A stretch of 64,000 nt of DNA from Anaerotruncus massiliensis (ex Togo et al. 2026). GTDB taxonomy: Bacteria > Bacillota > Clostridia > Oscillospirales > Ruminococcaceae. The stretch spans positions 2,232,541 to 2,296,540 of the forward strand of contig NZ_LT962687.1 in NCBI RefSeq assembly GCF_900199635.1. Direction: 5' to 3'. Of the stretch, positions 43,688-60,864 are shown in pieces. Position numbers and translations under genes: made by a program. Under the pieces are notes generated by a model that was not told the DNA's origin, did no database searches, and saw only the letters and a program-made list of their open reading frames with translations. The first letter of the stretch is position 1. Every line of letters starts with the position of its first letter.

Positions 43688-45757
43688 ATGAATCAAAAAC
43701 AGACGGCCTTTGTCACAAAGGAGCTGATGCTCCGGGCGGTGAAGGACTCCTTCGTCAAGCTGGCCCCCAAGACCCAGCTGCGCAACCCGGTCATGTTCCT
43801 CGTCTATGTCTCGGCGGTCCTGACCACCGCCCTCTATGTCTGCTCCCTCTTCGGGGTTGCGGACGCGCGCCCCGGCTTTATCCTCGCCGTGGCGGTCATC
43901 CTCTGGTTCACCGTCCTCTTCGCCGACTTCGCCGAGGCGATCGCCGAAGGGCGCGGTAAGGCGCAGGCCGACGCGCTGCGCGCCGCCAGACAGGACGTGA
44001 CCGCCAACAAAATCCCCTCCCCCGACCGCCGGGACGAGATCACCCGCGTCAAGAGCGCCTGCCTCCGGAAGGGCGACCTCGTCCTCGTCGGCGTGGGCGA
44101 ACAGATCCCCGCCGACGGCGAGGTGATCGACGGCGCGGCGTCGGTCGACGAAAGCGCGATCACCGGCGAATCCGCGCCGGTCATCCGCGAATCGGGCGGC
44201 GACCGCAGCGCGGTCACCGGCGGCACCACCGTCACCTCCGACCAGCTCGTCATCCGCGTCACAAGCGAGGCGGGCGAGAGCTTTCTGGACAAGATGATCG
44301 CGATGGTCGAGGGTGCCTCCCGCAAGAAGACCCCCAACGAGATCGCGCTGCAGATCCTGCTCGTCGCTTTGACGATCATCTTCCTGCTCGTCACCGTCTC
44401 CCTCTATCCCTTTTCCGCCTTCTCCGCCGGCCAGGCCGGGATGGTCAATCCCACCTCGGTGACCGCGCTGGCCGCCCTGCTCGTCTGCCTCGCGCCCACC
44501 ACGATCGGCGCGCTGCTCTCCGCAATCGGCATCGCGGGCATGAGCCGCCTCAACCAGGCCAACGTCCTCGCGATGAGCGGCCGCTCGATCGAGGCGGCGG
44601 GCGACGTGGATACCCTGCTGCTCGACAAGACGGGCACCATCACCCTCGGCAACCGGCAGGCGTACGAGTTGATCCCCGTCGACGGCACCGACATCCACGA
44701 GCTGGCCGACGCGGCGCAGCTCTCCTCGCTCGCCGACGAGACTCCCGAGGGGCGCAGCGTCGTTGTGCTCGCCAAGGAGCAGTTCGGCCTGCGCGGGCGG
44801 AACCTCGGCGGCCTGCACGCCAGCTTCATCCCCTTCACCGCCAAGACCCGGATGAGCGGCGTGGACTACGCCGGCAACGAAATCCGCAAGGGTGCGGCCG
44901 AGGCGGTCAGGGCCTACGTCGCCGGGCAGGGCGGCGCCTACTCCAAACAGTGCGAGGAGGCCGTTGAGCAGATCGCCCGCCAGGGCGGCACCCCCCTCGT
45001 CGTCGCCAAAAACGGGCGGGTGCTCGGCGTCATCCACCTCAAGGACATCATCAAGCAGGGGGTCAGGGAGAAGTTCGCCGACCTGCGCAAAATGGGCATC
45101 CGCACCGTCATGATCACCGGCGACAACCCCCTCACCGCCTCCGCCATCGCGGCGGAGGCCGGGGTGGACGACTTTCTTGCCGAGGCCACCCCGGAGGGCA
45201 AGCTGCAGATGATCCGGGACCTGCAGGCCAAAGGACACCTCGTCGCAATGACGGGCGACGGCACCAACGACGCGCCCGCGCTCGCGCAGGCGGACGTGGC
45301 CGTCGCGATGAACACCGGCACGCAGGCGGCCAAGGAGGCGGGCAACATGGTCGACCTCGACTCGTCGCCGACCAAGCTGATCGACATCGTGCGCATCGGC
45401 AAGCAGCTCCTCATGACCCGCGGCAGCCTGACCACCTTCTCGATCGCCAACGACGTGGCCAAGTACTTCGCCATCCTGCCCGCCCTCTTCATGGGGCTCT
45501 ACCCCGGGCTTTCCGCCCTCAACATCATGGGCCTGCACAGCGCCGAAAGCGCCATCCTCTCGGCGATCATCTACAACGCGCTCATCATCGTGGCGCTCAT
45601 CCCGCTGGCCCTCCGGGGCGTCCGCTACCGGGAGGTGCCTGCCGCGAAGCTGCTCTCCCGCAACCTCGTCGTCTACGGCCTCGGCGGTATCATCGCCCCG
45701 TTTATCGCCATCAAACTGATCGACATGCTGCTCGTCCTCTTCGGGCTCGTGCTCTAA
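43688..45757 (+). CDS. kdpB: K+-transporting ATPase subunit B
   Basis: 689 residues from ATG 43688 (SD AAAGGAG, 13 bp after kdpA). P-type ATPase: phosphorylated Asp313 in [11 protein letters not shown], the TGES loop ([11 protein letters not shown]) whose Ser can be an inhibitory phosphorylation site in E. coli, and the hinge [20 protein letters not shown]. Supplies energy for K+ uptake. Confidence 0.97.
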
Positions 45758-45774
45758 AGAAAGGCGGTTATCAC

Positions 45775-46380
45775 ATGAAAACCCTGAAAGAATATACGGT
45801 CAAGGCGCTTGTGGTCTGCGTGGCGCTCACCATTCTCTGCGGCGTCGTCTACCCGCTCGCCGTCACCGGGATCTGTCAGCTCGCCTTCCCCAAGCAGGCG
45901 AACGGCAGCATCATCGAGATCGACGGGAAAAAGTACGGCAGCGCCCTGCTTGCGCAGGAATTTACCGGCGACGAGTACCTCTGGGGCCGCGTGATGGCCC
46001 TCAACACCGGCGCCTTCCACGATGATGACGGCAGCCCGCTCTTATACGCGGGCCCCTCCAACAAAAGTCCCGCGAGCGCGGAATACGGGCGGATGATCGC
46101 CGAGCGGGTCGAAAAAATCCGCGCCGCCCATCCCGAGCGCGCGGACGAACCCATCCCGGTGGACCTCGTGACCGGTTCCGGCTCGGGGCTTGACCCGCAC
46201 ATCTCCCCCGCCGCGGCCGAATATCAGGTGGAGCGGGTCGCGCGGGCGCGCGGCGTCACCGCCGATGAGGTGCGCGCGGTGATCGCGGAATACACCGACG
46301 GGCGGCTGCTCGGCATATTCGGGGAGCCTACCGTCAACGTGCTCGAGGTGAACCTCGCCCTCGACGGGATTTTAAAGTAA
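45775..46380 (+). CDS. kdpC: K+-transporting ATPase subunit C
   Basis: 201 residues. One N-terminal membrane helix, then a soluble domain with RVMALNTGAFH, SGSGLDPHISPAAA and ARARGVTADEVRAVI, all KdpC hallmarks. Acts as a chaperone for ATP binding to KdpB. Last gene of the kdp operon, followed by a terminator. Confidence 0.96.
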   Translation: MKTLKEYTVKALVVCVALTILCGVVYPLAVTGICQLAFPKQANGSIIEIDGKKYGSALLAQEFTGDEYLWGRVMALNTGAFHDDDGSPLLYAGPSNKSPASAEYGRMIAERVEKIRAAHPERADEPIPVDLVTGSGSGLDPHISPAAAEYQVERVARARGVTADEVRAVIAEYTDGRLLGIFGEPTVNVLEVNLALDGILK

Positions 46381-46509: not shown

Positions 46510-47556
46510 TTAAAGAACCGCTTCCGCGAAGCCGCCGCTCTCACGCAGCGACCCGTCGGGCATCACCCACAGCGCCTCGGTGTCCTCCATCCCCTCCACG
46601 AGCGCCAGTCCCTCCTCATAGGGCATGTTGTAGAGCGCCGTCGACAGCGCGTCCGCCGCCCCCGAGTCGGGCGTCAACACGCTCACCGCCGTATAATAAG
46701 CGGCGGGCATGAGCGTCTCCGGGTCGATGATGTGGTGGTAGGTCTTTCCGTCCACCGTGTAATACCGCTGGTAGCTGCCGCTCGTCACAAGCGAGCGGTC
46801 CCGAAGCCCCACCGTGCAGAGGAACTGCGGGCCGCCCTCCCCCATGCCGGGGTTCTGCACTCCCACCTTCCAGGGGGAACCGCGCCCGTCCATGCTCCCG
46901 ATCGCGCGCACGTTGCCGCCCACGCTCACGAGCAGGCTTTCGATCCCCTTTTCCTCCGCCGCCCGGCAGGCCCGCTCGACCGCGTATCCCTTGGCGACCG
47001 CCCCCACGTCGAGGCGCATCTCCGGGTCCGCGAGATAGACGGTCGAGGCCGCCTCGTCGATCACGACCTTGTCGATATCGGTGTGCGCCGCCGCCTCCCG
47101 CAGCTTTTCCATCGGCGGCAGCTTGGCGGAAAGCGGGTCGTCGATCCCCCGTTCCCGGTAGTCGTGCCAGATGGACAGAACGCTCCCGAACGCGACGTTC
47201 ACCTTCCCGCCCGTGAAGGTGTAGAGCTCCTTCGCCTCAAGCAGCAGGTCGATCACCGGGCGCTCCACCACGACCGGCGCGACGCCCGCGCGGTCGTTGA
47301 TCGTCTTGATGTTGTGGACGCCCTCGTAGTCGTTATAGATGTCGTAGAGCCGGTGGTAGCGTTCCAGCTCGTCGTGAACGAACTGCGCCTCCTCGGTAAA
47401 AGCCGCCTTGTCGTCGGTATAGCCGACGATCGTCGTCACCGTATCGAAGAGGGTCAAAAAGGTCGCCTCATACCGCGGCGTCTCCGCCTCCGGCCGCCCG
47501 CAGGCGGGCAGCGCCGCCAGCAGCAGCGCGAGCAGGCATGCCGTCCATTTCCTCAT
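46510..47556 (-). CDS. apbE: FAD:protein FMN transferase lipoprotein (ApbE family)
   Basis: 348 residues. Lipobox LPAC (Cys19), so it is anchored outside the cell membrane. ApbE signatures: LDVGAVAKGYAVERA, SVGGNVRAIG, and TYHHIIDPETLMP with the Mg/FAD site. Transfers FMN from FAD onto Thr residues of extracytosolic proteins. The neighbour upstream is a four-unit PplA-like lipoprotein, the obvious substrate, matching the fmnB-pplA pair of the Listeria electron-transfer locus. A terminator hairpin separates the two genes. Confidence 0.94.
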   Translation of the reverse strand: MRKWTACLLALLLAALPACGRPEAETPRYEATFLTLFDTVTTIVGYTDDKAAFTEEAQFVHDELERYHRLYDIYNDYEGVHNIKTINDRAGVAPVVVERPVIDLLLEAKELYTFTGGKVNVAFGSVLSIWHDYRERGIDDPLSAKLPPMEKLREAAAHTDIDKVVIDEAASTVYLADPEMRLDVGAVAKGYAVERACRAAEEKGIESLLVSVGGNVRAIGSMDGRGSPWKVGVQNPGMGEGGPQFLCTVGLRDRSLVTSGSYQRYYTVDGKTYHHIIDPETLMPAAYYTAVSVLTPDSGAADALSTALYNMPYEEGLALVEGMEDTEALWVMPDGSLRESGGFAEAVL

Positions 47557-47571
47557 CCGTTTGCACTCCCG

Positions 47572-47605
47572 AAAAAGGAAGGGACGGTCCCCGTCCCTTC
47601 CTTTT
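47572..47605 (-). terminator. terminator between the PplA-like gene and apbE
   Basis: GGAAGGGACGG / CCGTCCCTTCC stem with A and T runs outside, 14 bp beyond the stop of the PplA-like gene. Confidence 0.88.
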
Positions 47606-47618
47606 CATTTTATTCCGT

Positions 47619-49661
47619 TCAGCCCGCGTTTTCCGCGGCCTTCTGGAGGATCGTGTTGAAGTCGCCGATGCCGATCGTCACCGAGGCGGCCAGCTCCGCG
47701 TCCGTCGGGGAGCCGTGGTCGTTCACCGCCAGGCCGGAAAGCTCCGCCGGGGTCTTGCCCAGTGCGTACTGCGCGTAGTTCTCCGCCTGCTGGTACCACT
47801 CCAGCCCGATCCCCGAGGCCTTCTTCATGCCGTAGGCCTCCTTGAGCTCGTTCTTCGTCTGCGGCGCGACCGCCAGGTCGGTCGTGATCTTGCCCGCTTT
47901 GTCGAAATTCACGTTGCTCTGCGAGCCGTCGAGGATGCAACTCGTAATCCGGCCGTCCGGCCCGAAGGTCGCCGCCGTGTACATCGAATACGCCTGTGCC
48001 AGGCCGTCCTCGTCCCCCGCGTCGGTGGATTTCGACATGTTCGTCTCGATCCCCAGCCCGAGCTTGTCGCCCGCCTTCGCGCCCATCGGCTTCGCGTTCG
48101 CGACCGCCTTCTCGACCGTCTCGAGCCAGCCGCCGACCGACATCGTCACCGACGACGCAAGCTCCGCGTCGCCCGCGTGCCCGTCCTCCGTCACCGCGAT
48201 GCCCCTGATCTCATCCAGCGTCTTGCCCGTCACGTAGGCGGCCAGCGCGTCCGCCTGCTCGTTCCACTCCCTGCCGATTCCGGAGGCCTTCTTCATGCCA
48301 TACTCTTCCTTAAGCTCCTGCTTGGTCCGGAACATCGTGTCCGTTCCGACGAGCAGCTTCCCCTCCTTCGAGAAGGGGATCTTCGCCTGCACCCCGTCGA
48401 TCTTGCAGTCGACGATGCGGCCGTCCGCGTCGACGAGCACCGCCACGACGTTCGAGTCCGCCTGCGCGAGGCCGTCCTCGTCGCCCGCGTCCTTCGAGCT
48501 GCCCACCGAGTTGATTACCGCCAGCCCGGTCATAAGGCCGCCCTCGCTCAGGGAGGCGGCGCCCGCGTTTTCCGCGGCCTTCTGGAGGATCGTGTTGAAG
48601 TCGCCGATGCCGATCGTCACCGAGGCGGCCAGCTCCGCGTCCGTCGGGGAGCCGTGATCGTTCACCGCCAGGCCGGAAAGCTCCGCCGGGGTCTTGCCCA
48701 GCGCGTACTGCGCGTAGTTCTCCGCCTGCTGGTACCACTCAAGCCCGATCCCCGAGGCCTTTTTCATGCCGTAGGCCTCCTTGAGCTCGTTCTTCGTCTG
48801 CGGCGCGACCGTCAGGTCGGTCGTGATCTTGCCCGCTTTGTCGAAGTTCACGTTGCTCTGCGAGCCGTCGAGGATGCAGCTCGTAATCCGGCCGTCCGGC
48901 CCGAAGGTCGCCGCCGTGTACATCGAATACGCCTGTGCCAGGCCGTCCTCGTCCCCCGCGTCGGCGGACTTGGACATGTTCGTCTCGATCCCCAGCCCGA
49001 GCTTGTCGCCCGCCTTCGCGCCCATCGGCTTCGCGTTCGCGACCGCCTTCTCGACCGTCTCGAGCCAGCCGCCGACCGACATCGTCACCGACGACGCAAG
49101 CTCCGCGTCGCCCGCGTGCCCGTCCTCCGTCACCGCGATGCCCCTGATCTCATCCAGCGTCTTGCCCGTCACGTAGGCGGCCAGCGCGTCCGCCTGCTCG
49201 TTCCACTCCCTGCCGATGCCGGAGGCCTTCTTCATGCCGTACTCTTCCTTAAGCTCCTGCTTGGTCCGGAACATCGTGTCCGTTCCGACGAGCAGCTTCC
49301 CCTCCTTCGAGAAGGGGATCTTCGCCTGCACCCCGTCAATCTTGCAGTCGACGATGCGGCCGTCCGCGTCGACGAGCACCGCCACGACGTTCGAGTCCGC
49401 CTGTGCGAGGCCGTCCTCATCGCCCGCGTCCTTCGAACTGCCCACCGAGTTGATCACCGCCAGCCCGGTCGAAAGCTCCGCGCCCGCCGGGACCTGCACC
49501 GGATTCTCCGGGGCGGGGTTCTCCTGCGGCTGCTGCGATTCACTTCCGGATGAAGCCTGCGGGCCGAAGGGGGAATACCCCTTCGGCAGATTGGAGCTGC
49601 ATCCCGCCAGCAGCGAGGCCGCCAAGACGAGGCTGAGCGCCGTCGCAAAAATTCGTTTCAT
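47619..49661 (-). CDS. PplA-like multi-domain lipoprotein, probable flavoprotein with four units
   Basis: 680 residues from ATG 49661 (SD GAAGGAGG). Lipobox LAGC (Cys21), Pro/Ser/Gln-rich spacer to about residue 64, then four ~156-residue units in the order A-B-A-B. All four share AGDEDGLAQA, ELKEEYGMKKASGIG or close variants, and DAELA-SVT. By analogy with FMN_bind/PplA proteins, the Thr in each SVT is a candidate ApbE flavinylation site, so four FMN per chain are possible. Probable role: carry electrons from the membrane to the cell exterior. The A-B pair is duplicated almost perfectly at DNA level. Confidence 0.8.
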   Translation of the reverse strand: MKRIFATALSLVLAASLLAGCSSNLPKGYSPFGPQASSGSESQQPQENPAPENPVQVPAGAELSTGLAVINSVGSSKDAGDEDGLAQADSNVVAVLVDADGRIVDCKIDGVQAKIPFSKEGKLLVGTDTMFRTKQELKEEYGMKKASGIGREWNEQADALAAYVTGKTLDEIRGIAVTEDGHAGDAELASSVTMSVGGWLETVEKAVANAKPMGAKAGDKLGLGIETNMSKSADAGDEDGLAQAYSMYTAATFGPDGRITSCILDGSQSNVNFDKAGKITTDLTVAPQTKNELKEAYGMKKASGIGLEWYQQAENYAQYALGKTPAELSGLAVNDHGSPTDAELAASVTIGIGDFNTILQKAAENAGAASLSEGGLMTGLAVINSVGSSKDAGDEDGLAQADSNVVAVLVDADGRIVDCKIDGVQAKIPFSKEGKLLVGTDTMFRTKQELKEEYGMKKASGIGREWNEQADALAAYVTGKTLDEIRGIAVTEDGHAGDAELASSVTMSVGGWLETVEKAVANAKPMGAKAGDKLGLGIETNMSKSTDAGDEDGLAQAYSMYTAATFGPDGRITSCILDGSQSNVNFDKAGKITTDLAVAPQTKNELKEAYGMKKASGIGLEWYQQAENYAQYALGKTPAELSGLAVNDHGSPTDAELAASVTIGIGDFNTILQKAAENAG
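47623..49470 (-). repeat. near-identical tandem duplication, two ~909-bp copies
   Basis: Copies at about 47623-48531 and 48562-49470 are offset by 939 bp (313 codons) and differ at only a handful of bases by eye. They lie wholly inside the PplA-like gene and keep frame. High identity at silent sites implies a recent duplication or gene conversion. Confidence 0.93.
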
Positions 49662-49681
49662 ATCGGTTCCTCCTTCGATCG

Positions 49682-50698
49682 TCACCGGCCGGGCTTCGCC
49701 GCCGGCTGTAGCTTGAGGCCGTAAAATGCCCTGTCCAGTATCTCCGTGAGCCGCCGCCGCTTCTCCCCGGGAGCGCCGAGCTCCCCGAGCAGCTTGGCCG
49801 CGCGGTCGTAATAGCGTTTGGAAAGCCGGCGAGCGTCGTCGAGCCCGCCGCTCGCGCGGACCCGTTCGTCCACCTCGGCGCGCGCGAGTTTCCCTCTCCG
49901 CGCGCGCTCGAGAAAGGCGGGGTCCTGTTCGAACGCCCGGATGAGCGGCAGCGTGACGACCCCCTGCTCGTAGTCCGACCGCACCGGCTTTTTGGCGGTC
50001 GCCTCGTCCGATTCAAAATCGATGCAGTCGTCGGTGAGCTGGAAGATCATGCCGATCTGCCGCCCGAGCCGCGCGTACCGGCGGATGAGCCGCTCCTCCT
50101 CTGTAAAGAAGAGCGCGCCCGCGTAAAACGCCGCCTCAAAGAGGGCGGCCGTCTTGCCCCCGATGATCTTGAGGTAGCGGTAGGCGGTCAGCTCGAGGTT
50201 GCCGTTATTGAGGTGCTGGCCCAACTCCCCGAGGCAGATGCGCCCCACATAGTCGGGCAGCCGCAGGTCAAGGTAGCGTTCCCGGTCGCCCACCTGCGCC
50301 GCGAGCCGCAGGGAAGCGGCGAGCAGGTAGTCGCCGCAGATGACCGCCGTGCGCCTGCCGTACATGCGCTGGAGGGTGGGGATGCCGCGCCGCAGGTCGG
50401 CGTCGTCGATGACGTCATCGTGCACGAGCGTCGCGAGGTGGAGCATCTCGACGGCGGCGGCCAGCTCCGCCGCGTCGGCGGGAATCCCGCCGTCCTCCCC
50501 CTGTGCGCAGGCGAGCAGGGCGGCGGCGCGGATCATCTTGCCCCGCGCGCCCGCGAGGTGCGCGGTATAGCTGCGGATCAGACCCGGCGAGCCGGTGAGG
50601 GCCCCGTCGATGCGTTCCTTCACCGCCTCGAACGCCGCGTCAAATCCGGGGTAGCAGGCGGCCTGGGGGCGCGCCTGATTTTGTGTCGCGTCAATCAT
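49682..50698 (-). CDS. polyprenyl diphosphate synthase (trans-type)
   Basis: 338 residues from ATG 50698, which overlaps the NADH dehydrogenase end by 8 bases; a TTG at 50722 is possible. Both Asp-rich motifs are intact: DDVIDDADLRRG (FARM) and DDCIDFE (SARM), plus GKMIRAA. Makes the long prenyl tail for a quinone. In the operon ndh2 - this gene - pplA-like it matches dmkB of the Listeria electron-transfer locus. The UbiA-type transferase encoded at 54988 would use its product. Confidence 0.92.
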   Translation of the reverse strand: MIDATQNQARPQAACYPGFDAAFEAVKERIDGALTGSPGLIRSYTAHLAGARGKMIRAAALLACAQGEDGGIPADAAELAAAVEMLHLATLVHDDVIDDADLRRGIPTLQRMYGRRTAVICGDYLLAASLRLAAQVGDRERYLDLRLPDYVGRICLGELGQHLNNGNLELTAYRYLKIIGGKTAALFEAAFYAGALFFTEEERLIRRYARLGRQIGMIFQLTDDCIDFESDEATAKKPVRSDYEQGVVTLPLIRAFEQDPAFLERARRGKLARAEVDERVRASGGLDDARRLSKRYYDRAAKLLGELGAPGEKRRRLTEILDRAFYGLKLQPAAKPGR

Positions 50699-52700
50699 TG
50701 TAGAGATACCACTTTCTGACAAACCTGACGTTTTTCCAGTGTTTTTTTAGGGCGGGCATGACGTAGTAGTCGAGGCCCAGCGTCCTGCCGCCGCCGATGA
50801 GCACCGCAATCGCGGCGAAGATCATCCAGAAGGTGTTGAGGTAGAGCCCCGTCGTGGTGACGAACATGAACTGCAGCACGAGCGAGGCGGCGGAGGCCGG
50901 GAAGTTGAAGAGGCCGCCGATCAGCGCCAGCCCGATGAGGATTTCGAGCACCACGATGGTGATCTGCATGAACATCTGCATCCCGTCGCTGGCAAGCACC
51001 ACATGGTCGACGAACCAGTTGATAAAGGGGATGTCGATCTTGAAGGCGTAGTCCGCCAGCGTGGAATGGGCCAGGTCGGTGCCGCTGACAAGCGTCACGT
51101 CCATAAATCCGAGCAGCCGGTAGCTGAACACCGCCACGCCGCTGGCCACCGCCTCGCCGACCTCGGCGGTCGCGGTGGCGACCGCGTCGACGGCCCCGGA
51201 GGTCGCGCCCGCGACCGCGTTGACCATATCAGTCACGTTGCGCGCGCCCGCGGCGGAGAGGATCTTGTTGAAGAAGCCGGTCGCGCCGCTGAAGAAGCCG
51301 GTGAGCTGCGGGGTCTGCATCCAGCCCTCGACGATCTTCATGACGCCCTCGAACACCCAGCAGACGCCCAGCCAGACGCGCAGCGGCACGAGCAAAAAGC
51401 TCGGGGTGCGGTTGGAAAAATGCCCGCCCACAAAGCTGCGGCAGTTGCGGATGGTGAAGAACTCGTGCCTCAAATAGCTGATGACCTTGTTCCAGCCGAG
51501 CACCTGCACGAAGTAGACGACGTTGATGAAATGCTTGGTAAACATCGCCAAGAAGGAGGGCAGGCAGATCATGTGGTTGGGGGTGCCCACCTGCGCGACG
51601 CCGTACCTGCCGCCGACCGACACCATGACCCCGTGGAACTTGGGACGGTAGTCCTCCAGCTCCCCCTGCCCGGTGAGCTGCACCGTCAGGTTGTGGGCGA
51701 TCGTGTCGGCGCTCTGCTCGCAGTTTTCGACCATCTGCGGGACGGGGTTCTCCTCCCCCTCGGGGACGTACATGATGTTGTCGCCCGCGATGAACACGTC
51801 CTCGTGGTCGACTGCGCGCAGGTATTTGTCGGTGACGACCCGGCCGCGGCGGGCGGTCTGGAGGGCCTTGGCCGCCTCGGAGACGATGTCGCTCGACTCG
51901 ATGCCCGCCGTCCAGATGACGGTGCCCGCCTGGTGGCACTCGACGGTGTCTCCCTGCTTGAGCTCGATGTAGTCCTTGCCGATGCCCGCGACGCCGGTTC
52001 CGAGCATGACCTGCACGCCCATCTTCGTGAGCCTGCGCTCCACCTTGTCGGAGAGCTTCTTCGGCAGGATGGGCACCGTGCGGTCGAGCACGTCGACGTC
52101 GAACATCGACACCTCGTCCCGGTCGATCTCGAATTTCTCGCAGAGCAGCGGCACCAGCTCGGCCAGCTCGCCCGCCATCTCGACGCCGGTGAAGCCCGCG
52201 CCGACCACATAGAAGGTCAGCAGCCTGCGGCGCTCGGCCGGGTCGGTCTCGCGCGCGGCGCGGCGGAAGACGTGGAGCAGGTGCTCGCGCAGGACGACCG
52301 CGTCGTCGTAGGACCACAGGGTATAGGAGATCTCCTCCGCGCCCGGCACGCCGAAGAAGGTCGGCTTGGAGCCGGTCGCGAGGATGAGATAGTCGTAGGG
52401 GTAGGTGCCCACGCGCCCTTCGAGCACCTTGCCGTCAAAATCGATCGAGGTGACCGTGTCAAGCACCACATGTACGTTGCGTCCCGCGAAGACCCGTTCG
52501 AGGCTGATCTTGATGCTGTCCTCATCCACGCGGTGTGCGGCGACCTCGTGCAGCTCGGTGTACATGGTGTGGAAGGGGTTTTTGTCGATGACGGTGATCT
52601 GCACGTTCTCCTGTTTTTTCAGCCGTTTCGCCAGTTTTTTGGCGGTCAGGACGCCCGCGTAGCCCGCGCCGACAATGACAATGTTTTTCAATGCTTTCAT
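50691..52700 (-). CDS. type II NADH dehydrogenase with C-terminal membrane domain (Ndh2-like)
   Basis: 669 residues, far longer than ordinary Ndh-2 (~400). FAD loop IVIVGAGYAG at the N-terminus, NADH loop VVGAGFTGVEMAGEL, VIWTAGIE, and FIAGDN. The extra ~230 residues form four or more membrane helices with a DoxX-like look, as in the Listeria FLEET Ndh2. Passes electrons from NADH to membrane quinone without pumping protons. ATG 52700 sits right against its SD; TTG 52691 has better spacing and may be the real start. Operon head. Confidence 0.93.
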   Translation of the reverse strand: MKALKNIVIVGAGYAGVLTAKKLAKRLKKQENVQITVIDKNPFHTMYTELHEVAAHRVDEDSIKISLERVFAGRNVHVVLDTVTSIDFDGKVLEGRVGTYPYDYLILATGSKPTFFGVPGAEEISYTLWSYDDAVVLREHLLHVFRRAARETDPAERRRLLTFYVVGAGFTGVEMAGELAELVPLLCEKFEIDRDEVSMFDVDVLDRTVPILPKKLSDKVERRLTKMGVQVMLGTGVAGIGKDYIELKQGDTVECHQAGTVIWTAGIESSDIVSEAAKALQTARRGRVVTDKYLRAVDHEDVFIAGDNIMYVPEGEENPVPQMVENCEQSADTIAHNLTVQLTGQGELEDYRPKFHGVMVSVGGRYGVAQVGTPNHMICLPSFLAMFTKHFINVVYFVQVLGWNKVISYLRHEFFTIRNCRSFVGGHFSNRTPSFLLVPLRVWLGVCWVFEGVMKIVEGWMQTPQLTGFFSGATGFFNKILSAAGARNVTDMVNAVAGATSGAVDAVATATAEVGEAVASGVAVFSYRLLGFMDVTLVSGTDLAHSTLADYAFKIDIPFINWFVDHVVLASDGMQMFMQITIVVLEILIGLALIGGLFNFPASAASLVLQFMFVTTTGLYLNTFWMIFAAIAVLIGGGRTLGLDYYVMPALKKHWKNVRFVRKWYLYND

Positions 52701-52741
52701 CTCCTAAATGTGAACTCCGCCAGTTCGCTCCCGGCGTGAAA

Positions 52742-53071
52742 TCATTTGCGCTCGTTCGTTTCGCCGTCCGGGGGCATCCCCGCCGCGGCCTTCAGCAGGA
52801 AGATCTCCTCGACCGTTTCGATCAGCCGGATCGCCCGCTGGTCGACGATCTTGTAGACCATGCTCTGTCCCTGTTTGTCGCACTCAACAATCCGGTTGGC
52901 CCGCAGCAGCGTCAGGTGCTGGGAGAGCGCCGACTGGGTGATCCCCTTGAGGCGCTTGTGCAGCTGCCCGACGTTCATGGGGCCGGTCATCAAATGGCAG
53001 AGGATGACCATGCGGTTTTCGTTCGCCAGCAGCGCGCAGAGCGCCGCCGCGTCCTTCGCTGGATTCGCCAT
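52742..53071 (-). CDS. ArsR family regulator
   Basis: 109 residues, winged helix with KRLKGITQSALSQHLTLLRANRIV. The classical metal box ELCVCDL is missing. Cysteines are instead at residues 12, 25 and 63, so it may sense redox or reactive sulfur species, though this is speculative. Lies between the NADH dehydrogenase and UbiD genes and probably controls one or both divergent operons. SD GGGGGG. An inverted repeat sits at its own promoter. Confidence 0.88.
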   Translation of the reverse strand: MANPAKDAAALCALLANENRMVILCHLMTGPMNVGQLHKRLKGITQSALSQHLTLLRANRIVECDKQGQSMVYKIVDQRAIRLIETVEEIFLLKAAAGMPPDGETNERK

Positions 53072-53105
53072 TGATTCCCCCCCGTTTTTCGTGTATAATA
53101 TTAAG

Positions 53106-53158
53106 GAAATTAGTAATTAAGCAATTTCTAATATAATTATATCTTTGGTATTTGTCAA
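53106..53158 (-). promoter_or_regulatory. promoter and candidate operator of the ArsR-ndh2 operon
   Basis: Minus strand: TTGACA (53158-53153), 17-bp spacer, TATATT (53135-53130). Inverted repeat GAAATT / AATTTC with 11-bp spacing (53106-53128) covers the expected start of transcription, fitting autorepression. On the plus strand a TATAAT (53188-53193) may belong to the UbiD gene. The 198-bp gap is otherwise AT-rich and non-coding. Confidence 0.65.
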
Positions 53159-53268
53159 GTATTTATCAATGGTTTTTTGCCATTTTATATAATGTGTCCA
53201 ACTTCCCCGCCATCTATTTAACAAATTACCCGATAACCGTTTTTTCCAGAGAAAGGAGGCCGTCCGGA

Positions 53269-54969
53269 TTGGCCTACCGGGACTTGCAGGCATTCATCGC
53301 CGCGCTCGAAAAGCGCGGCGAACTCATGCGGATTTCCGCGCCCGTCTCCCCCATCCTGGAGATCACCGAAATCGCCGGCCGCGTCATGAAGCGCGGCGGC
53401 CCGGCCCTTCTCTTCGAGCGGGTCGAGGGCTCCGATTTCCCCCTGCTCATCAACGCGATGGGCTCCGACGCACGCATGGCGCTCGCGCTGGGCGCCGAAA
53501 GCCTCGACGAAATCGGCGGCGACGTGGCCCGCTACCTCGATTTCGGCAACTACACCTCTCTCGGAAACCTCGTCCGCTTCGCCCCTCGTCTCCCGCGCCT
53601 TGCCGCCTGCTTTCCCCACCGGCGCCGCCTGCGCCTTACCCGCCCGCCCTGCCAGCAGGTGATCGAGCGGGAGCCCGACCTCTCGGCGCTGCCGGTGCTC
53701 CACTGCTGGCCGCAGGACGGCGGCCGCTTCTTCACCCTGCCGCTCGTCTTCACGAAGCTGCCGGGCGCGCGGACGCAGAACTGCGGCATGTACCGGATGC
53801 AGGTGCTCGATAAGACCTCCACCGCCATGCACTGGCACAAGCACAAGGACGGCTCTGCCATCTATGAGGCGTGGCGGGCGCGGGGCGGGAAAATGCCCGT
53901 CGCGGTCGCGCTCGGCTGCGGCCCCGAGATCACCTACGCCGCGACCGCGCCGCTGCCGCCCGGTCTCGACGAGATGCTGCTCGCGGGCTTCCTGCGCAGG
54001 CGGCCCGTCGCGCTGACAAAATGCGTCGCCAGCGACCTGTGGGTGCCGCGGGACGCGCAGTTCGTGCTCGAGGGATACGTCGACACCGAGGAGCCCCCCG
54101 TGTGGGAGGGCCCGTTCGGCGACCACACCGGCTACTACTCGCTGACCGACTGGTACCCCCGCTTCCACGTCACCTGCGTCACCCGCCGGAGAAACCCCGT
54201 CTACCCGGCGACCGTCGTGGGCAGGCCCCCGATGGAGGACTGCTATCTGGCGAAGGCCACCGAACGCATCTTCCTGCCCGTGCTGAAGCTGCAGATGCCC
54301 CAGCTGTGCGACCTCTGCCTCCCCTTCGAGGGGGTGTTCCACAACTGCGCGGTCGTCTCGGTCAGAAACGACTTCCCCGGCGCGGCGCGCACCGTCATGA
54401 ACGCGATGTGGGGGATGGGACAGATGCGCTACACCAAGCTGATCGTCGCGGTGGACGCGTCGGTCGACCCGCGGGACACCGGCGCAGTGCTCGCGGCGGT
54501 GCTCCAAAACGCCGATCCCGCGTCGGACTACCTCCTCTCGGACGGCCCGCTCGACGCGCTCGACCACTCGTCCGACCGCGCCCTCTACGGCGCGCGGCTG
54601 GGCGTCGACGCAACCGCGAAACCGGGCGTAACGCCCCGTCCGGGGCGTTACGCCCTCCTGCCGGTCCAAAAGCGCGCGCCGGGCGACGGCCGGGAGGCCG
54701 CGCTGGCCGCGCTCGAGGCGGAGGGCGTCTCGTTCGCCGTGGCGCTCGACGACACGGTGGACCTCGCCGACCGCTCGGAGGTGCTCTGGCGGGTCTTCAA
54801 CAACATCGACGCGGGGCGCGACCTCGTGGTGAAGGACGGGAAAATCGCGCTCGACGCGACGAAAAAGCTGCCGGGGGAGGGGCTCACCCGCCCCTGGCCG
54901 GACGACATCACGATGTCGCCGGAAATGGCCGCGCGGGTGGACGCGCGGTGGGAAGAATACGGATTCTGA
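53269..54969 (+). CDS. UbiD family decarboxylase
   Basis: 566 residues from TTG 53269 (AAAGGAGG at 9 bases); the longer frame upstream is promoter DNA. Prenylated-FMN enzyme that removes or adds CO2 on aromatic or alpha,beta-unsaturated acids. Motifs: EGPFGDHTGYYS, TVVGRPPMED and ATERIFLPVLKL (metal and prFMN region). First gene of ubiD-ubiA-ubiX-ABC, the gene set seen in late futalosine-type menaquinone synthesis (MqnL-like). A 32-base perfect palindrome lies in the coding sequence. Confidence 0.92.
   Translation: MAYRDLQAFIAALEKRGELMRISAPVSPILEITEIAGRVMKRGGPALLFERVEGSDFPLLINAMGSDARMALALGAESLDEIGGDVARYLDFGNYTSLGNLVRFAPRLPRLAACFPHRRRLRLTRPPCQQVIEREPDLSALPVLHCWPQDGGRFFTLPLVFTKLPGARTQNCGMYRMQVLDKTSTAMHWHKHKDGSAIYEAWRARGGKMPVAVALGCGPEITYAATAPLPPGLDEMLLAGFLRRRPVALTKCVASDLWVPRDAQFVLEGYVDTEEPPVWEGPFGDHTGYYSLTDWYPRFHVTCVTRRRNPVYPATVVGRPPMEDCYLAKATERIFLPVLKLQMPQLCDLCLPFEGVFHNCAVVSVRNDFPGAARTVMNAMWGMGQMRYTKLIVAVDASVDPRDTGAVLAAVLQNADPASDYLLSDGPLDALDHSSDRALYGARLGVDATAKPGVTPRPGRYALLPVQKRAPGDGREAALAALEAEGVSFAVALDDTVDLADRSEVLWRVFNNIDAGRDLVVKDGKIALDATKKLPGEGLTRPWPDDITMSPEMAARVDARWEEYGF
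54624..54655. repeat. perfect palindrome inside the UbiD gene
   Basis: 14-bp arms GGGCGTAACGCCCC (54624-54637) and GGGGCGTTACGCCC (54642-54655) with loop GTCC. In frame, encoding about eleven residues near position 455. Could be an inserted palindromic element. Confidence 0.8.
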
Positions 54970-54987
54970 CGTGGAGGCGCCTTCGAT

Positions 54988-55860
54988 ATGGAACTCGCTC
55001 ATAAACTGATTCGGAAGCTGCGCGCCTACGGGACGCTCGTGATGTTCAGCCACACGATCTTCTCCCTCTCGTTCGGCGCCGTCGCCTTCCTCGCCGCGTC
55101 GAACGGCAGGCCGCGACTCTGGACGGCGGCGTGGGCCGCGCTCGCCTTCCTGTCGGCGCGCACGGGGGCCAACGCCCTCAACCGCGCGGTCGACGCGAAG
55201 ATCGACGCGAAAAACCCTCGCACCGCCGGACGGCAGATCCCGCGCGGCGAAATCTCCGTGCGCGAGACGGTCGCGCTTTCAGCCGCCTGCTTCGCGCTGC
55301 TCGTCGTGAGCGCCGCGATGCTGAACCCCCTCTGCCTGGTCCTCTCCCCCCTCGCCCTCCTGATGATGGCCTTCTACTCCTATACCAAGCGGTTCACCTG
55401 GCTCTGCCACCTCTTTCTGGGCGCGACCTGCGGCATCGCGCCGGTCGGCGCGTGGCTCGCTGTGACGGGGCGGTTTTCCCTGCCGCCGCTGCTGCTCGGC
55501 GCGGCCAACTGCCTGTGGACCGCCGGCTTCGACGTCATCTACGGCTGCCAGGACTATGACTTCGACCGGCAAAACGGCCTTCATTCGATCCCCGTGCGGT
55601 TCGGCGTGGCGGGCGCGCTGCATATCAGCACCGCGTTTCATGCCGCGGCGCTCGTCTGCCTCGCGGCCTTCCTCCTGCTGGAGCCGCATATGGGACTCCT
55701 CTTCGGCGCGGGGCTGCTCGCCGCCGCCGCCCTCATGGCGGTGCAGCACACAATGGTCTCCCCCCGGCGGCTTGAGGGGGTCAACGTCGCCTCCTACAGC
55801 ATGAGCCAGCTCACCAGCCTTGCGCTGCTGGTCTTCGGCATCCTCGACATCTACCTCTGA
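54988..55860 (+). CDS. UbiA family prenyltransferase
   Basis: 290 residues, 8-9 membrane helices. Both Asp-rich motifs are present: NRAVDAKIDAKNPRT and DYDFDRQNGLHSIP. Attaches a polyprenyl chain to an aromatic acid in the membrane. Together with the UbiD and UbiX neighbours it matches MqnP of the futalosine menaquinone pathway; alternatively it uses 1,4-dihydroxy-2-naphthoate like MenA/DmkA. 18 bp after ubiD; ubiX follows after 13 bp. Confidence 0.92.
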   Translation: MELAHKLIRKLRAYGTLVMFSHTIFSLSFGAVAFLAASNGRPRLWTAAWAALAFLSARTGANALNRAVDAKIDAKNPRTAGRQIPRGEISVRETVALSAACFALLVVSAAMLNPLCLVLSPLALLMMAFYSYTKRFTWLCHLFLGATCGIAPVGAWLAVTGRFSLPPLLLGAANCLWTAGFDVIYGCQDYDFDRQNGLHSIPVRFGVAGALHISTAFHAAALVCLAAFLLLEPHMGLLFGAGLLAAAALMAVQHTMVSPRRLEGVNVASYSMSQLTSLALLVFGILDIYL

Positions 55861-55873
55861 AAGAAGGGCTTCT

Positions 55874-56443
55874 ATGGAAACCTACATCATCGGGATCACC
55901 GGCGCGAGCGGGAGCGCCTACGCGCTGCGCATCTCGGACGCCCTGCTGGAAAGCGGCGCGGCCCTGCGGGTCGTCGCCACCGATACCGGCCGCCGGGTGC
56001 TGGAATATGAGACGGGCGTATCGCTCGAACGCTGGTCCGGGGAACGCCCCAACGCCGTGCTCGAGGACAACGCCGACCTCTTCTCCCCGCTCGCGAGCGG
56101 CTCGCGGCGGTTCGCGGGGATGGTGGTCGCGCCCTGCTCGATGTCGACGCTCGGCAGGCTCGCGTGCGGCGTCACGACCGACCTGCTCACCCGGGCGGCG
56201 GACGTCATGCTCAAGCAGCGGCGGCCCCTCCTGCTGGTGCCGCGCGAAACGCCGCTCACCTCGATCCACCTGCAAAACATGCTGACGCTCAGTCAGTGCG
56301 GCGCGACGATCCTGCCCGCGATGCCCGCGTTTTACCACCGCCCCCGGACGGTCGACGACCTTGTCTCCTTCGTGGCGGGCCGGGCGCTCGACTGCCTGGG
56401 CGTTGAAAACCATCTATATCAGCGTTGGAGGGAAGAACCATGA
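55874..56443 (+). CDS. UbiX family flavin prenyltransferase
   Basis: 189 residues from ATG 55874 (SD AAAGAAGG). Makes prenylated FMN from FMN and dimethylallyl phosphate, the cofactor of the UbiD encoded upstream. Motifs GITGASGSAYA, APCSMSTLGRLACG and RETPLTSIHLQNM are conserved. Its stop overlaps the start of the next gene (ATGA). Confidence 0.94.
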   Translation: METYIIGITGASGSAYALRISDALLESGAALRVVATDTGRRVLEYETGVSLERWSGERPNAVLEDNADLFSPLASGSRRFAGMVVAPCSMSTLGRLACGVTTDLLTRAADVMLKQRRPLLLVPRETPLTSIHLQNMLTLSQCGATILPAMPAFYHRPRTVDDLVSFVAGRALDCLGVENHLYQRWREEP

Positions 56444-57375
56444 AAAAAACCATTTTGAAGCGCGCCGCGGCCCTGTTGCTCGCGGCGCTCGCCGCGGCGG
56501 GGCTCGCCGCGTGCGGCAGACAGCCCGAGCCCGATACGCTGCGCATCGGCGTCATGTATTCGTCCGACATCATCCCGCTGGCGGTCATGAAGGACCAGAA
56601 GCTCGATGAAAAGCAGGGCGTCGTCCTCGACATGCAGGTCTTCTCCTCCGCCAAGGACCGCGACGCGGCGCTGCAGGCGGGCGAGCTCGACGGGGTGTTC
56701 ACCGATTTCATCGGCGCGTGCATCTACCAAAACGCCGGGCTCGACGTGAAGATCACCGGCATGACCGACGGCGACTACCTGCTGCTCGCCGGTCCGGATT
56801 CCGGCGTCACGACGCTCGCGGACGCCGCCGGGAAATCGATCGCGATTTCGGAAAACACGCTGATCGAATACGCGCTTGACTACATCCTTACGCAGGAGGG
56901 GTACGGCGCGGACTACCTCAAAAAGGAGGTCGTCCCCCGCATCCCCGACCGCCTTGAGATGCTGCGCAGCGGCGAGGTCGACCTCTGCCTGCTGCCCGAG
57001 CCGTTCGCGACCCTCGCCCTCACCGACGGCGCCGTCGAGCTCGGCAGCGCCAACACGGCGGGGCTCTATCCCGCCGTCTCCGCCTTCACCCAGTCGGCGA
57101 TCGACGGGAAGGCCGGCGCGATCAGAAAGTACTACGCCGCCTACGACGAGGCGGTCGACTACGTGAACAACACCCCCCTCTCGGAATACGAGCCGGTCGT
57201 GATCGCGGGCGCGGGCTTCCCAGAGGAGCTCGCGGGCAGAATCGAGCTGCCCGTCTTCCGCAAAAACGCGCTGCCCGACGCCGCCGTCCTCTCCGACGCG
57301 GTCGCCTGGGCCTCGGGCAAGGGGCTCTGCCCCGCTTCCCTCACCCCAGCCGACCTGCTCGGCGACCTCGGATAA
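56440..57375 (+). CDS. ABC transporter substrate-binding lipoprotein (NMT1/SsuA type)
   Basis: 311 residues from ATG 56440. Lipobox LAAC, then a two-lobe periplasmic-binding fold with GELDGVFTDFIGACIYQN and GEVDLCLLPEPFATLAL, typical of the NMT1/SsuA/ThiY group that binds sulfonates, pyrimidines or aromatic acids. MqnA and MqnD share this fold, but this protein is exported and has ATPase and permease partners, so it is a transporter part. Coupled to ubiX, which suggests that it imports a quinone precursor. Confidence 0.88.
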   Translation: MKKTILKRAAALLLAALAAAGLAACGRQPEPDTLRIGVMYSSDIIPLAVMKDQKLDEKQGVVLDMQVFSSAKDRDAALQAGELDGVFTDFIGACIYQNAGLDVKITGMTDGDYLLLAGPDSGVTTLADAAGKSIAISENTLIEYALDYILTQEGYGADYLKKEVVPRIPDRLEMLRSGEVDLCLLPEPFATLALTDGAVELGSANTAGLYPAVSAFTQSAIDGKAGAIRKYYAAYDEAVDYVNNTPLSEYEPVVIAGAGFPEELAGRIELPVFRKNALPDAAVLSDAVAWASGKGLCPASLTPADLLGDLG

Positions 57376-57380
57376 GCGCG

Positions 57381-58124
57381 ATGCTGGAAGTTGAAAACCT
57401 CACGGCGCGCTACCCGCGCGCGAGCCGCCCGGTCATCGACGGGCTCTCCTTCTCCCTCGGGGAAGGGGGGCTGCTTGCACTGCTCGGGCCGTCCGGCTGC
57501 GGCAAGACGACGCTACTGAACCTGCTGGCCGGGGTGCTCCCACCCACGGGCGGGAGCGTCCGCTTCTGCGGCGCACCCCTCTCCCCGCGTGATACCGCCA
57601 TCGGCCTCATCCCCCAGAACTACGGCCTGCTCCCCTGGAAGACGGTGCGGGAGAACTGCCTTTTCTGCGCGCGGCTGCGCGGCGCGTCCGGCGAAAGGGA
57701 GCTTGACGCCCTCTGCGCGCGGCTGGGCATCGGCGGCCTGCTCGACCGCTACCCGCGCGAATTAAGCGGCGGGCAGGCGCAGCGGGCGGCGCTGGCGCGC
57801 GCGCTGCTCATGAAGCCGCGCCTGCTGCTGATGGACGAACCCTTCGCCGCGCTCGACGCGGCGGCGGCCGACCGCGCCAGGCGGCTCTGCTTCGAGCTCT
57901 GGCGGGATTCGGGCGCAACGGCGGTCGTGGTGACCCACCGCCCGGAGGAGGCGCTCTACCTCGCGGGCCAGATCGCCGTCATGGGAAAGGGCGGGCGCTT
58001 TACCCGCCTCCTGGAGAACCCCTGGCAGGGCCTGCCCGAGCCGGGCGGCCCCTATTTCGAGGCGTTCTCCCACGAGCTGCGGCGGGAAATCCTGCTCGCC
58101 GCCGGAGAGGAGGCCGCGTCATGA
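57381..58124 (+). CDS. ABC transporter ATP-binding protein
   Basis: 247 residues. Walker A GPSGCGKTT, signature ELSGGQAQRAALARAL, Walker B LLLMDEPFAALD, and the switch His in VTHRPEEAL. SsuB/TauB-like importer ATPase. Begins 5 bp after the binding-protein gene and overlaps the permease gene by 4 bp. Confidence 0.95.
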   Translation: MLEVENLTARYPRASRPVIDGLSFSLGEGGLLALLGPSGCGKTTLLNLLAGVLPPTGGSVRFCGAPLSPRDTAIGLIPQNYGLLPWKTVRENCLFCARLRGASGERELDALCARLGIGGLLDRYPRELSGGQAQRAALARALLMKPRLLLMDEPFAALDAAAADRARRLCFELWRDSGATAVVVTHRPEEALYLAGQIAVMGKGGRFTRLLENPWQGLPEPGGPYFEAFSHELRREILLAAGEEAAS

Positions 58125-58861
58125 AAAAGACGGGCGCCTTCCTGCTCGGCTTCGCGGCGGTCAACCTGCTCTGGCTGGCCGCCGCCGCGCTGCTCGACAC
58201 CCGCGCGCTGCCCGGCCCCGCGGAGGTGTACGCCCACTTTGGGGACGTGCTCGCCGCGGGCGTCTTCCGCCACATCGGCGCGAGCCTCTGGCGGGTGTTC
58301 GCGGGGCTTTTCCTCGCGCTCGCGGTCGGGGTGCCGGTCGGCCTGCTGATGGCCGCCTCCCCCCGTTGGAACGCCCTGCTCCACCCGGTCGTCTACTTCT
58401 CCTACCCCGTCCCCAAGACCGCCCTGCTGCCCGTCGCGATGCTCCTTTTCGGCCTGCGGGACGGCTCGAAGATCCTCATCATCCTGCTGACCGTCCTCTT
58501 CCAGGTGATCGTCGCCACGCGGGACGCGGCCCGGGCCGTCGACCCCGGCCTCTACCAGGTGGCCGTCAGCGCAGGGGCCTCGCGCGGCCGCCTGCTCGGA
58601 CAGATCACGCTTCCCGCCGTGCTGCCCGAGCTCTTCACCAGCCTGCGCATCGGCGTGGGCACCGCGCTGGCCGTCCTCTTCATCGTCGAGGCGTACGGCA
58701 CCCGCGCGGGGATCGGCTACTACATCCTCGACGCATGGAGCCGCATCGACTACCTCGAAATGTACGGCGGCATCGTCGTGATCTCGGTGGTGGGCGCGGC
58801 GCTCTTTCTGGCCGTCGACCTGCTCGCGCGGCGGCTCTGCCGCTGGAAGGAGCCGTCCTGA
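58121..58861 (+). CDS. ABC transporter permease (SsuC/BPD type)
   Basis: 246 residues, six membrane helices, with the EAA-type loop VAVSAGASRGRLLGQITLPAVLPEL that contacts the ATPase. Starts in ATGA overlap with the ATPase gene. Last gene of the ubiD-ubiA-ubiX-ABC operon. Confidence 0.94.
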   Translation: MKKTGAFLLGFAAVNLLWLAAAALLDTRALPGPAEVYAHFGDVLAAGVFRHIGASLWRVFAGLFLALAVGVPVGLLMAASPRWNALLHPVVYFSYPVPKTALLPVAMLLFGLRDGSKILIILLTVLFQVIVATRDAARAVDPGLYQVAVSAGASRGRLLGQITLPAVLPELFTSLRIGVGTALAVLFIVEAYGTRAGIGYYILDAWSRIDYLEMYGGIVVISVVGAALFLAVDLLARRLCRWKEPS

Positions 58862-59483: not shown

Positions 59484-60848
59484 TCAGGCGAAGAGGTCGT
59501 TGAGCGCCTCGCTCATCGTCGGGTGGGTGAAGACCTGCCTGCCGAGCACGGTATAGTCGGCGTCGAGGTCCATCGCGAGCTTGACGATGTTGATCATCTC
59601 GTAGCTCTCCTCGCAGAAGAGCATCGCGCCCAGGATCTTGTTGGTGTCCGCGTCGACGACCGCCTTGAGCAGGCCGACGGGGTGCTTCAGCACCTGCGCC
59701 TTGGGGATGGCGGCGGCCGGCAGGGTAAGGACCTTCACATTGCGGCCCGCCTCGCGCGCCTCCCTTTCGTTGAGGCCGACGCGGGAGAAGGAGGGGTCGA
59801 TGAAGACGCTGTAGGGGACGTTTTTACGCCTGGCGGCGTCGTAATCGCCGCCCGAAAGCTGCGACCAGACGATTCGGAAATCGTCGAGGGAGACGTAGGT
59901 GAACTGCAAGCCGCCCACAACGTCCCCCATCGCCCAGATGTTCGGGGCGGTGGTGCGCAGCTTTTCGTCCACCTTGACCGCGCCGCGCGGAGTCAGCTCG
60001 ACTCCCGCCTCGGCCGCGTTGAGGCCGTCGGTGTTGGGGCGGCGGCCGGTCGCGACGAGCACCGCGTCCGCCGCGAGCGTCTCTTCCGCGCCCTCCCGCG
60101 CGAAGGTCACCTCCGCGTGGTCGCCCGCGTCCGCGACCTTTTTGACCGCCGCGCCGATCTGGAAGGCGACGCCCTTTGCTTCGAGCGCCTTTTTGATTTC
60201 GGCGGCGATATCCGCGTCCTCGCGGGGCAGGAACACGGGCGCGCCCTCGAACACCGTGACCTGCGAGCCGAAGCCCGCGTAAATCGAGGCGAACTCGAGC
60301 CCGATGTAGCCTCCGCCGATGATTGCCAGCCGGCGGGGGAGCTTTTCAAGGTCCATGAGCCCCTCGCTCAGGTAGACGAACGGGTTCTCCCGGAGCCCCT
60401 CGATGGGCGGGACGACGGGGGTGGAGCCGGTGTTGATGAAGATCTGCTTCCCCTCGAGGACGAGCGTCTCCCCCCGGTCGGACACGACCCGCACCTGCGT
60501 CGGCGAAAGGAAGCTGCCCATGCCGTTGAAGACGGTGACGTTGGGGTTGCCGTCGAGCTTGTCAAAGTTCTTTTTGCGCAGCATGGCGGTCAGGCGGCGT
60601 TTCTCCTCGATGGCGGCGGCGTAGAACGCCTGCTTCTTCTCAAAGTCCGCGTTTCGGTGCCCGTGGGAGATGCCCGAACTGCGCACCAGCGATTTGGAGG
60701 GGATGCACCCCACGTTGATGCAGGTGCCCCCATACATCCTGTCGGATTTTTCGATCATTGCGACGGTTTTTCCGCTCGCGCCGAGTTTGCCCGCGAGGGT
60801 TTTGCCCCCCTTGCCGAAACCGATTACGATTGCGTCATACTGCTTCAC
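59484..60848 (-). CDS. RclA-like pyridine nucleotide-disulfide oxidoreductase
   Basis: 454 residues from GTG 60848 (GAAGG at 8 bases). FAD loop IVIGFGKGGKTLAGKLG, redox-active Cys43/Cys48 in GGTCINVGCIPSKSL, NAD loop IIGGGYIGLEFA, and the C-terminal active-site base in FTHPTMSEAL. The CINVGCIPSKSLV pattern is closest to RclA, a Cu(II)/reactive-oxygen or chlorine defence reductase, rather than lipoamide dehydrogenase. Follows the Rrf2 gene by 16 bp, in one transcript controlled by an Rrf2-type operator. Confidence 0.88.
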   Translation of the reverse strand: MKQYDAIVIGFGKGGKTLAGKLGASGKTVAMIEKSDRMYGGTCINVGCIPSKSLVRSSGISHGHRNADFEKKQAFYAAAIEEKRRLTAMLRKKNFDKLDGNPNVTVFNGMGSFLSPTQVRVVSDRGETLVLEGKQIFINTGSTPVVPPIEGLRENPFVYLSEGLMDLEKLPRRLAIIGGGYIGLEFASIYAGFGSQVTVFEGAPVFLPREDADIAAEIKKALEAKGVAFQIGAAVKKVADAGDHAEVTFAREGAEETLAADAVLVATGRRPNTDGLNAAEAGVELTPRGAVKVDEKLRTTAPNIWAMGDVVGGLQFTYVSLDDFRIVWSQLSGGDYDAARRKNVPYSVFIDPSFSRVGLNEREAREAGRNVKVLTLPAAAIPKAQVLKHPVGLLKAVVDADTNKILGAMLFCEESYEMINIVKLAMDLDADYTVLGRQVFTHPTMSEALNDLFA

Positions 60849-60864
60849 AAAAATGCCTTCTTTC

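Follow-up and report, generated by a model that had tools for sequence, protein, structure and literature searches.

Several described systems come close to the locus analysed here: the loci for flavin-based extracellular electron transfer (FLEET; extracellular electron transfer, EET) of Listeria and Lactiplantibacillus, the futalosine pathway of menaquinone synthesis, NMT1-type ABC importers such as SsuA, TauA and THI5, and the cross-feeding of quinones between microbes. In the sections of the papers accessible to us, to which our literature statements are confined, MqnP, MqnL and MqnM were predicted in 2016, with transporters of soluble quinone precursors still to be annotated, predicted and validated (PMC4746308), and in 2017 quinones were shown to act as growth factors for gut isolates, with transporters still undescribed (PMC5738691). 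Lactiplantibacillus plantarum uses exogenous 1,4-dihydroxy-2-naphthoate (DHNA) or quinones for electron export (PMC9888254, PMC10746273), and uptake pathways yet unidentified are expected (PMC10746273). EetB is a subunit of a flavin adenine dinucleotide (FAD) exporter, often linked to Rnf in Clostridia, PplA is flavinylated at two sites, and deletion of eetA causes no EET defect (PMC9973259). Here we analyse a 64,000-nucleotide stretch of the Anaerotruncus massiliensis genome (the window; contig NZ_LT962687.1, positions 2,232,541 to 2,296,540), in which a leftward set of electron-export genes diverges from a rightward operon of ubiD, ubiA, ubiX and an ABC importer.

The window shares parts with each of these systems. 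As in FLEET, ndh2, a dmkB-like gene, apbE/fmnB and the gene of a PplA-like lipoprotein stand together, whereas dmkA, eetA and eetB are absent from the locus, and the FLEET-like character claimed in a preliminary description thus holds for a partial set; the quinone would be supplied instead by MqnP, MqnL and MqnM together with the importer. With the futalosine pathway the window has in common an MqnL above cut-off, an MqnP-type UbiA and UbiX, but MqnA/D and MqnC were not found in the A. massiliensis genome, and the late enzymes are accompanied by an ABC importer. The substrate-binding protein (SBP) belongs to the same family as SsuA, TauA and THI5 and shows the same SBP-ATPase-permease layout, but scores 75 against the SsuA model cut-off of 163.5 and, unlike SsuA systems, is a conserved partner of mqnL/mqnP. 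As we read the accessible accounts of quinone cross-feeding (L. plantarum with DHNA; gut isolates, PMC5738691), the shared element would be a ring precursor obtained from other microbes while the late enzymes are retained; the differences are a dedicated transporter, predicted here, and a precursor that is probably a 6- and not a 2-naphthoate.

We propose that the rightward operon is a menaquinone salvage route. The lipoprotein-dependent ABC importer would take up a soluble aromatic precursor from other microbes, most likely 1,4-dihydroxy-6-naphthoate; MqnP (UbiA) would attach to it the polyprenyl chain that the DmkB-like synthase is predicted to make, and MqnL (UbiD), with prenylated flavin mononucleotide (FMN) from MqnM (UbiX), would remove the ring carboxylate to give demethylmenaquinone. 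In A. massiliensis the neighbouring Ndh2 would reduce this quinone, which may hand its electrons to the extracytoplasmic lipoprotein flavinylated by ApbE, such that NADH could be reoxidised on outside acceptors. The ligand, the direction of transport, the product and the electron path of this scheme are what we infer. As a whole, salvage of imported 6-naphthoate that here feeds electron export appears likely to us. With less assurance, we lean towards the wider view that no importer of a soluble menaquinone precursor had been recognised before this one: a Clostridia ABC system, fixed in an operon with MqnL-MqnP-MqnM, that would mark many anaerobes as half-pathway quinone auxotrophs, which depend on neighbours with the futalosine pathway for 1,4-dihydroxy-6-naphthoate and in some cases spend it on extracellular electron transfer.

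What is shown directly is the identity of the genes, their linkage across genomes and the absence of the tested ring-forming genes. Going by model scores, we assign the window trio to the late futalosine type MqnL-MqnP-MqnM, because UbiD passes the NCBI menaquinone decarboxylase (MqnL) equivalog TIGR03701 and UbiA fits MqnP-type models best. In fact, MqnP models rank among the best-scoring ones for the window UbiA, yet it stays below the cut-offs of the MqnP "exception" models (273.2 bits on MqnP_DT, cut-off 430); ubiA_proteo gives only 116.

Comparison across genomes reveals the importer as a conserved partner of ubiD-ubiA(-ubiX). An MqnL above cut-off occurs in 2 of 197 genomes of the host family (A. 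massiliensis and G069), two further genomes of the A. massiliensis genus showing no match. A sample spanning the class has one in 21 of 391 genomes. We read the loci, and compared them with the window proteins, in 24 operon genomes, namely these 21 together with G069, G267 and G696, whose MqnL is truncated at a contig end (375 bits). The SBP gene adjoins the ubiD/ubiA/ubiX genes in 23 of the 24, and ATPase and permease go with these genes in 23 as well, counting G847, where the operon lies on two contig ends; G620 likewise has its operon divided between contigs. The SBP gene is divergent from ubiD in G674, and G748 shows no more of it than a divergent fragment of 121 residues at the end of a contig. 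Its recurrence in other families makes the ubiD-ubiA-importer set more than a chance arrangement.

At E 1e-40, the threshold given to the search beforehand, SBP matches were found in 20 of the 21 MqnL-positive genomes and in 12 of the 370 others. With the bar set at 290 bits or more, a choice made once the scores were known, the counts are 18 of 21 versus 1 of 370 (Fisher p 5.2e-27, kinship ignored), the single exception being G696 with its truncated MqnL; the test assumes that the same 391 genomes underlie separate draws, and genome handles agree wherever both lists show them, non-matching genomes not all being listed. Pairwise SBP distances correlate with those of the permease (r 0.904), UbiA (0.828), the ATPase (0.80) and UbiD (0.592), and for each of them 0 of 2000 permutations was as high, common descent contributing to the correlation. 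An order-wide SBP search at E 1e-30 returned 2 of 394 genomes, A. massiliensis and G267. A contig search with a two-row alignment gave three loci: the G069 contig (L019), and L020 and L021, which we dropped as relatives, their matches covering the first 41-48 residues only amid unrelated genes.

The preliminary description had seen no ring-forming gene at the locus, and at genome scale this stands for the families that were searched (MqnA/D, MqnC, MenB and MenD). The A. massiliensis assembly (3.15 Mb, completeness 98.75%, contamination 1.43%) has zero matches to PF02621, the MqnA/MqnD family, and stays below cut-off for MenD (59.1 against 244.2) and MqnC (42.1 against 428.1). Its MenB match (148 bits, cut-off 342.7) was not accepted as MenB, being far below cut-off; we take it to resemble an enoyl-CoA hydratase. 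The same models exceed their cut-offs in 14 control genomes as follows: PF02621 in 4, MenB in 7, MenD in 7 and MqnC in 2. Not one of the 24 operon genomes reaches the cut-off for MqnC (best score 52, cut-off 428.1) or for MenD (best score 79.9, cut-off 244.2), and the sub-cut-off matches to both that occur in most of them are read as paralogues. For PF02621 the search covered the class sample, and with it 22 of the 24 (all but G069 and G267): 26 of the 391 genomes match, 20 of them above the Pfam cut-off, with a best score of 48.5 bits and no reference score of a true MqnA/D. For the UbiE/MenG family (PF01209) A. massiliensis has four matches, above the lax Pfam cut-off of 20.1; because the best reaches only 43 bits, methylation seems doubtful and demethylmenaquinone the likelier end product.

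The salvage reading has to be weighed against several observations that speak against it. G680 is the exception for the SBP, keeping ATPase and permease at the locus, with a weaker SBP candidate on another contig (L073), and G674 is the exception for ATPase and permease. No UbiX is visible at the locus in 6 of the 24 genomes, against 18 where it is, and other genes separate parts of the operon in L064-L066 (three genomes of one genus) and in L056. The wider SBP family evidently has other roles, judging by the matches at E 1e-40 in the 12 genomes without an MqnL above cut-off, and among solved relatives the closest whose ligand is named are THI5, sulfonate and taurine binding proteins. An AlphaFold2 model of the SBP, built from two input sequences, was unusable (predicted local distance difference test, pLDDT, 34.6). 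The 26 genomes with PF02621 matches include six that carry the operon, with weak scores (22.0-35.5 bits); these matches are probably other binding proteins and not cytosolic MqnA/D, since 6 of 6 frames start like lipoproteins. Finally, in 17 of the 24 operon genomes the stretches read, whose lengths differ, contain no electron-export genes.

Which compound the importer carries is best approached from the enzymes beside it. DHNA, scavenged as in L. plantarum and prenylated by the UbiA enzyme acting as DmkA, is unlikely in our view, even though exogenous DHNA use for EET is documented in the accessible parts of PMC9888254 and PMC10746273. G069 does carry a MenA-like enzyme in one row with its operon genes, at 252.2 bits on a DHNA polyprenyltransferase model, below the cut-off of 316. 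With DHNA, however, UbiD and UbiX would be idle, MenA prenylation losing the carboxylate: MqnL and UbiX are needed only when prenylation leaves the ring carboxylate in place, as would hold for 1,4-dihydroxy-6-naphthoate but not for DHNA. We favour the 6-naphthoate because an MqnL-type UbiD and UbiX are present and a MenA enzyme would need neither. Moreover, the window UbiA, the sole PF01040 match of the A. massiliensis genome, which leaves that genome with no dmkA candidate other than an MqnP-type protein, scores 273 bits on the MqnP model against 25.8 on the best DHNA prenyltransferase model among the matches listed. A MenA-like gene of the G069 type would have shown, since PF01040 picks up the G069 protein (55.5 bits, cut-off 34.2). 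Less credible still is a route to a benzoquinone-type carrier in which 4-hydroxybenzoate or a related benzoate is imported, prenylated and decarboxylated. UbiA, UbiD and UbiX act in such an order in ubiquinone synthesis, and our own ligand is one that we infer, but the window UbiD passes the MqnL equivalog cut-off and reaches 371.6 bits on the ubiquinone-type model, where 788 is required.

It is also improbable, in our judgement, that 1,4-dihydroxy-6-naphthoate is made in the cell by a non-orthologous route while the ABC system imports some other need of the operon, such as a flavin or a prenyl precursor for UbiX. Replacement enzymes are known or predicted in the futalosine pathway, according to the accessible sections of PMC4746308, and NMT1-type SBPs serve many ligands, THI5 being the best solved relative of the SBP profile. 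The tested ring-forming enzymes are nevertheless missing together (MqnC and MenD in all 24 genomes), the SBP is present in 6 of 6 loci without visible UbiX, of which L068 ends at a contig end, and SBP distances track those of UbiA, UbiX not being in that comparison. Imported 1,4-dihydroxy-6-naphthoate therefore remains our preferred ligand, with the SBP as its proposed binder. R74, D75, D84, D89 and R171, among others, are invariant in 21 operon-linked SBP sequences and would suit a carboxylate ligand, without proving it. Against solved structures the SBP profile scores 21-30 bits, the matches comprising, besides the relatives named above, chains named only ABC binding or exported proteins. 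In sum, the comparative evidence substantially strengthens the scavenging idea of the preliminary description, which had left the choice between DHNA and a 6-naphthoate undecided: the tested ring genes are missing and the importer is linked, and DHNA has become the less likely of the two.

Lower-scoring SBP loci were found in G680 (L073) and G785 (L074), with no UbiD adjoining; the UbiD of G785 lies elsewhere in its genome and is below cut-off (342.9 bits). The SBPs of these two loci are more distant (29-30% identity), and the one in L074 adjoins Ndh2, EetA, EetB, ApbE and DmkB.

Electron export is the proposed destination of the quinone in A. massiliensis, and the gene row of G069, from another genus of the same family, offers a counterpart. 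There, ndh2-dmkB-pplA-apbE-eetA-eetB-menA-like-ubiD-ubiA-SBP-ATPase-permease-ubiX follow one another on one strand, with EetA matching PF07009 and EetB PF07456, so that G069 additionally holds the eetA, eetB and MenA-like counterparts of FLEET. The window Ndh2 is 60% identical to the Ndh2 of this full FLEET set; solved NDH-2 structures align over residues 5-402 of its 669, leaving about 270 residues beyond. The PplA-like lipoprotein is 50% identical to a two-motif lipoprotein of the G069 row and carries four DAEL[AS]SVT motifs (residues 193, 349, 506 and 662), with an internal duplication whose halves, offset by 313 residues, share 82% identity. These motifs are likely FMN sites, with the motif threonine presumably carrying the FMN. 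Searches of Pfam, NCBIfam and PDB gave sub-threshold matches only, for this protein as for its G069 counterpart, and the label "PplA-like" rests on context and that counterpart. With its MenA-like enzyme (L015 8444-9355) next to MqnP, G069 might accept two distinct naphthoates as precursors. The window gives the impression of a variant lacking a MenA-type enzyme, in which MqnP, MqnL and MqnM would supply the quinone.

No EetA frame occurs in the window locus, PF07009 not having been searched genome-wide. The sole PF07456 (EetB-family) match of the A. massiliensis genome adjoins a gene run with a second apbE (L017 2288-8956) that we take to be Rnf-like. We considered this gene as the missing EetB of the locus, but it stands by the Rnf-like genes; its product might export FAD for both ApbE enzymes.

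By plain count, 7 of the 24 genomes, from five families, have at least two of Ndh2, DmkB, ApbE, EetA, EetB and PplA next to the operon (A. massiliensis, G069, G646, G740, G647, G680 and G748, the Ndh2 match being weak in G647). Since the other 17 show no such neighbours in the stretches that were read, the import operon has no general tie to electron export. The preliminary description suggested that the cell dedicates its quinone to electron export, and this is not supported; other quinone users of the A. massiliensis genome were not surveyed.

Within the open-access literature, subscription papers and preprints lying outside our scope, we found no description of an importer with MqnP, MqnL and MqnM, and the accessible parts of PMC13386864 and PMC12702654 do not treat one. 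Exchange of soluble quinone precursors between anaerobes has already been proposed; the operon offers a concrete candidate gene set for the transporter and a way of marking a guild of anaerobes that depend on quinones. If true, the salvage route would explain flavin-based EET in bacteria without a menaquinone ring pathway, and it may bear on why some such bacteria resist cultivation.

All frames named in the preliminary description are full and intact open reading frames at their positions in the window, and its gene content and arrangement (apbE, PplA-like, polyprenyl synthase, ndh2; arsR; ubiD-ubiA-ubiX-importer) are borne out, by family or structure matches for all but the PplA-like lipoprotein (Table 1).

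Table 1. Features of the locus, with positions in the window unless a locus is named.
Feature	Position	Strand	Evidence
apbE / fmnB-type FAD:protein FMN transferase, lipoprotein-like signal	46510-47556	(-)	PF02424 228.8 bits; solved ApbE structures E 7.9e-41
PplA-like lipoprotein, four DAEL[AS]SVT motifs	47619-49661, open reading frame to 49685	(-)	motif repeats, G069 counterpart
Polyprenyl diphosphate synthase, DmkB-like	49682-50722	(-)	PF00348 183 bits; TIGR02748 163.8, below cut-off 456.55
Type II NADH dehydrogenase, C-terminal membrane tail (EET-type Ndh2)	50691-52700	(-)	solved NDH-2 structures E 8.5e-63
ArsR/SmtB-family regulator, first gene of leftward set	52742-53071	(-)	NF033788 68.2 bits, cut-off 55
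AT-rich divergent promoter region	53072-53268		sequence inspection
ubiD / mqnL, prenylated-FMN-dependent decarboxylase, MqnL type	53269-54969	(+)	TIGR03701 591 bits, cut-off 495.9
ubiA / mqnP, polyprenyltransferase, MqnP type	54988-55860	(+)	TIGR01475 273.3, cut-off 180.8
ubiX / mqnM, flavin prenyltransferase	55874-56443	(+)	TIGR00421 207.3, cut-off 108.9
Substrate-binding lipoprotein (SBP), NMT1/SsuA type	56440-57375	(+)	PF13379 38.2, cut-off 24.7; TIGR01728 74.9, below 163.5
ABC importer ATPase	57381-58124	(+)	many ABC ATPase models; none reaching equivalog cut-off among matches listed
ABC importer permease	58121-58861	(+)	PF00528 72.5 bits, cut-off 26.4
U32-like and aminotransferase-like pair (putative)	L056 10685-14097; L057 12967-16121; L061 11819-15030; L152 3028-6275; L074 6017-9243

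Overlaps within the operon, as had been described, are seen in the coordinates: the ubiX stop overlaps the SBP ATG by 4 bases, as the ATPase and permease genes overlap each other. The partnership of the importer with ubiD-ubiA(-ubiX) recurs in the other genomes. UbiD probably starts at the TTG at 53269, behind the ribosome-binding site AAAGGAGG (53252-53259), instead of at 53152, and UbiX probably at the ATG at 55874. A palindromic ArsR operator was sought in the promoter region, which held short imperfect repeats only; one inverted repeat with 9-nt arms (53095-53103 / 53129-53137) is possibly, if weakly, a candidate operator.

Beside the import operon or a related SBP, two proteins recur that we take to be a U32-peptidase-like protein (about 640 residues) and a class-III aminotransferase-like protein (about 425 residues); in L056 their genes lie between those of the ATPase and the permease. 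Because UbiU and UbiV are U32 proteins, a quinone role of the U32-like protein is possible.

Directly before the electron-export genes, the window holds genes that we presume, from their sequence, to encode a Kdp potassium transporter with its sensor and regulator (38202-46380). Past the importer follow redox genes (59484-62970) for a pyridine nucleotide-disulphide oxidoreductase, an Rrf2 regulator, an AhpC/TSA-like lipoprotein and a rhodanese lipoprotein. About 3 kb beyond the end of the window, the A. massiliensis genome encodes a repetitive protein of 1438 residues that is perhaps surface-exposed (L018 3256-7572).

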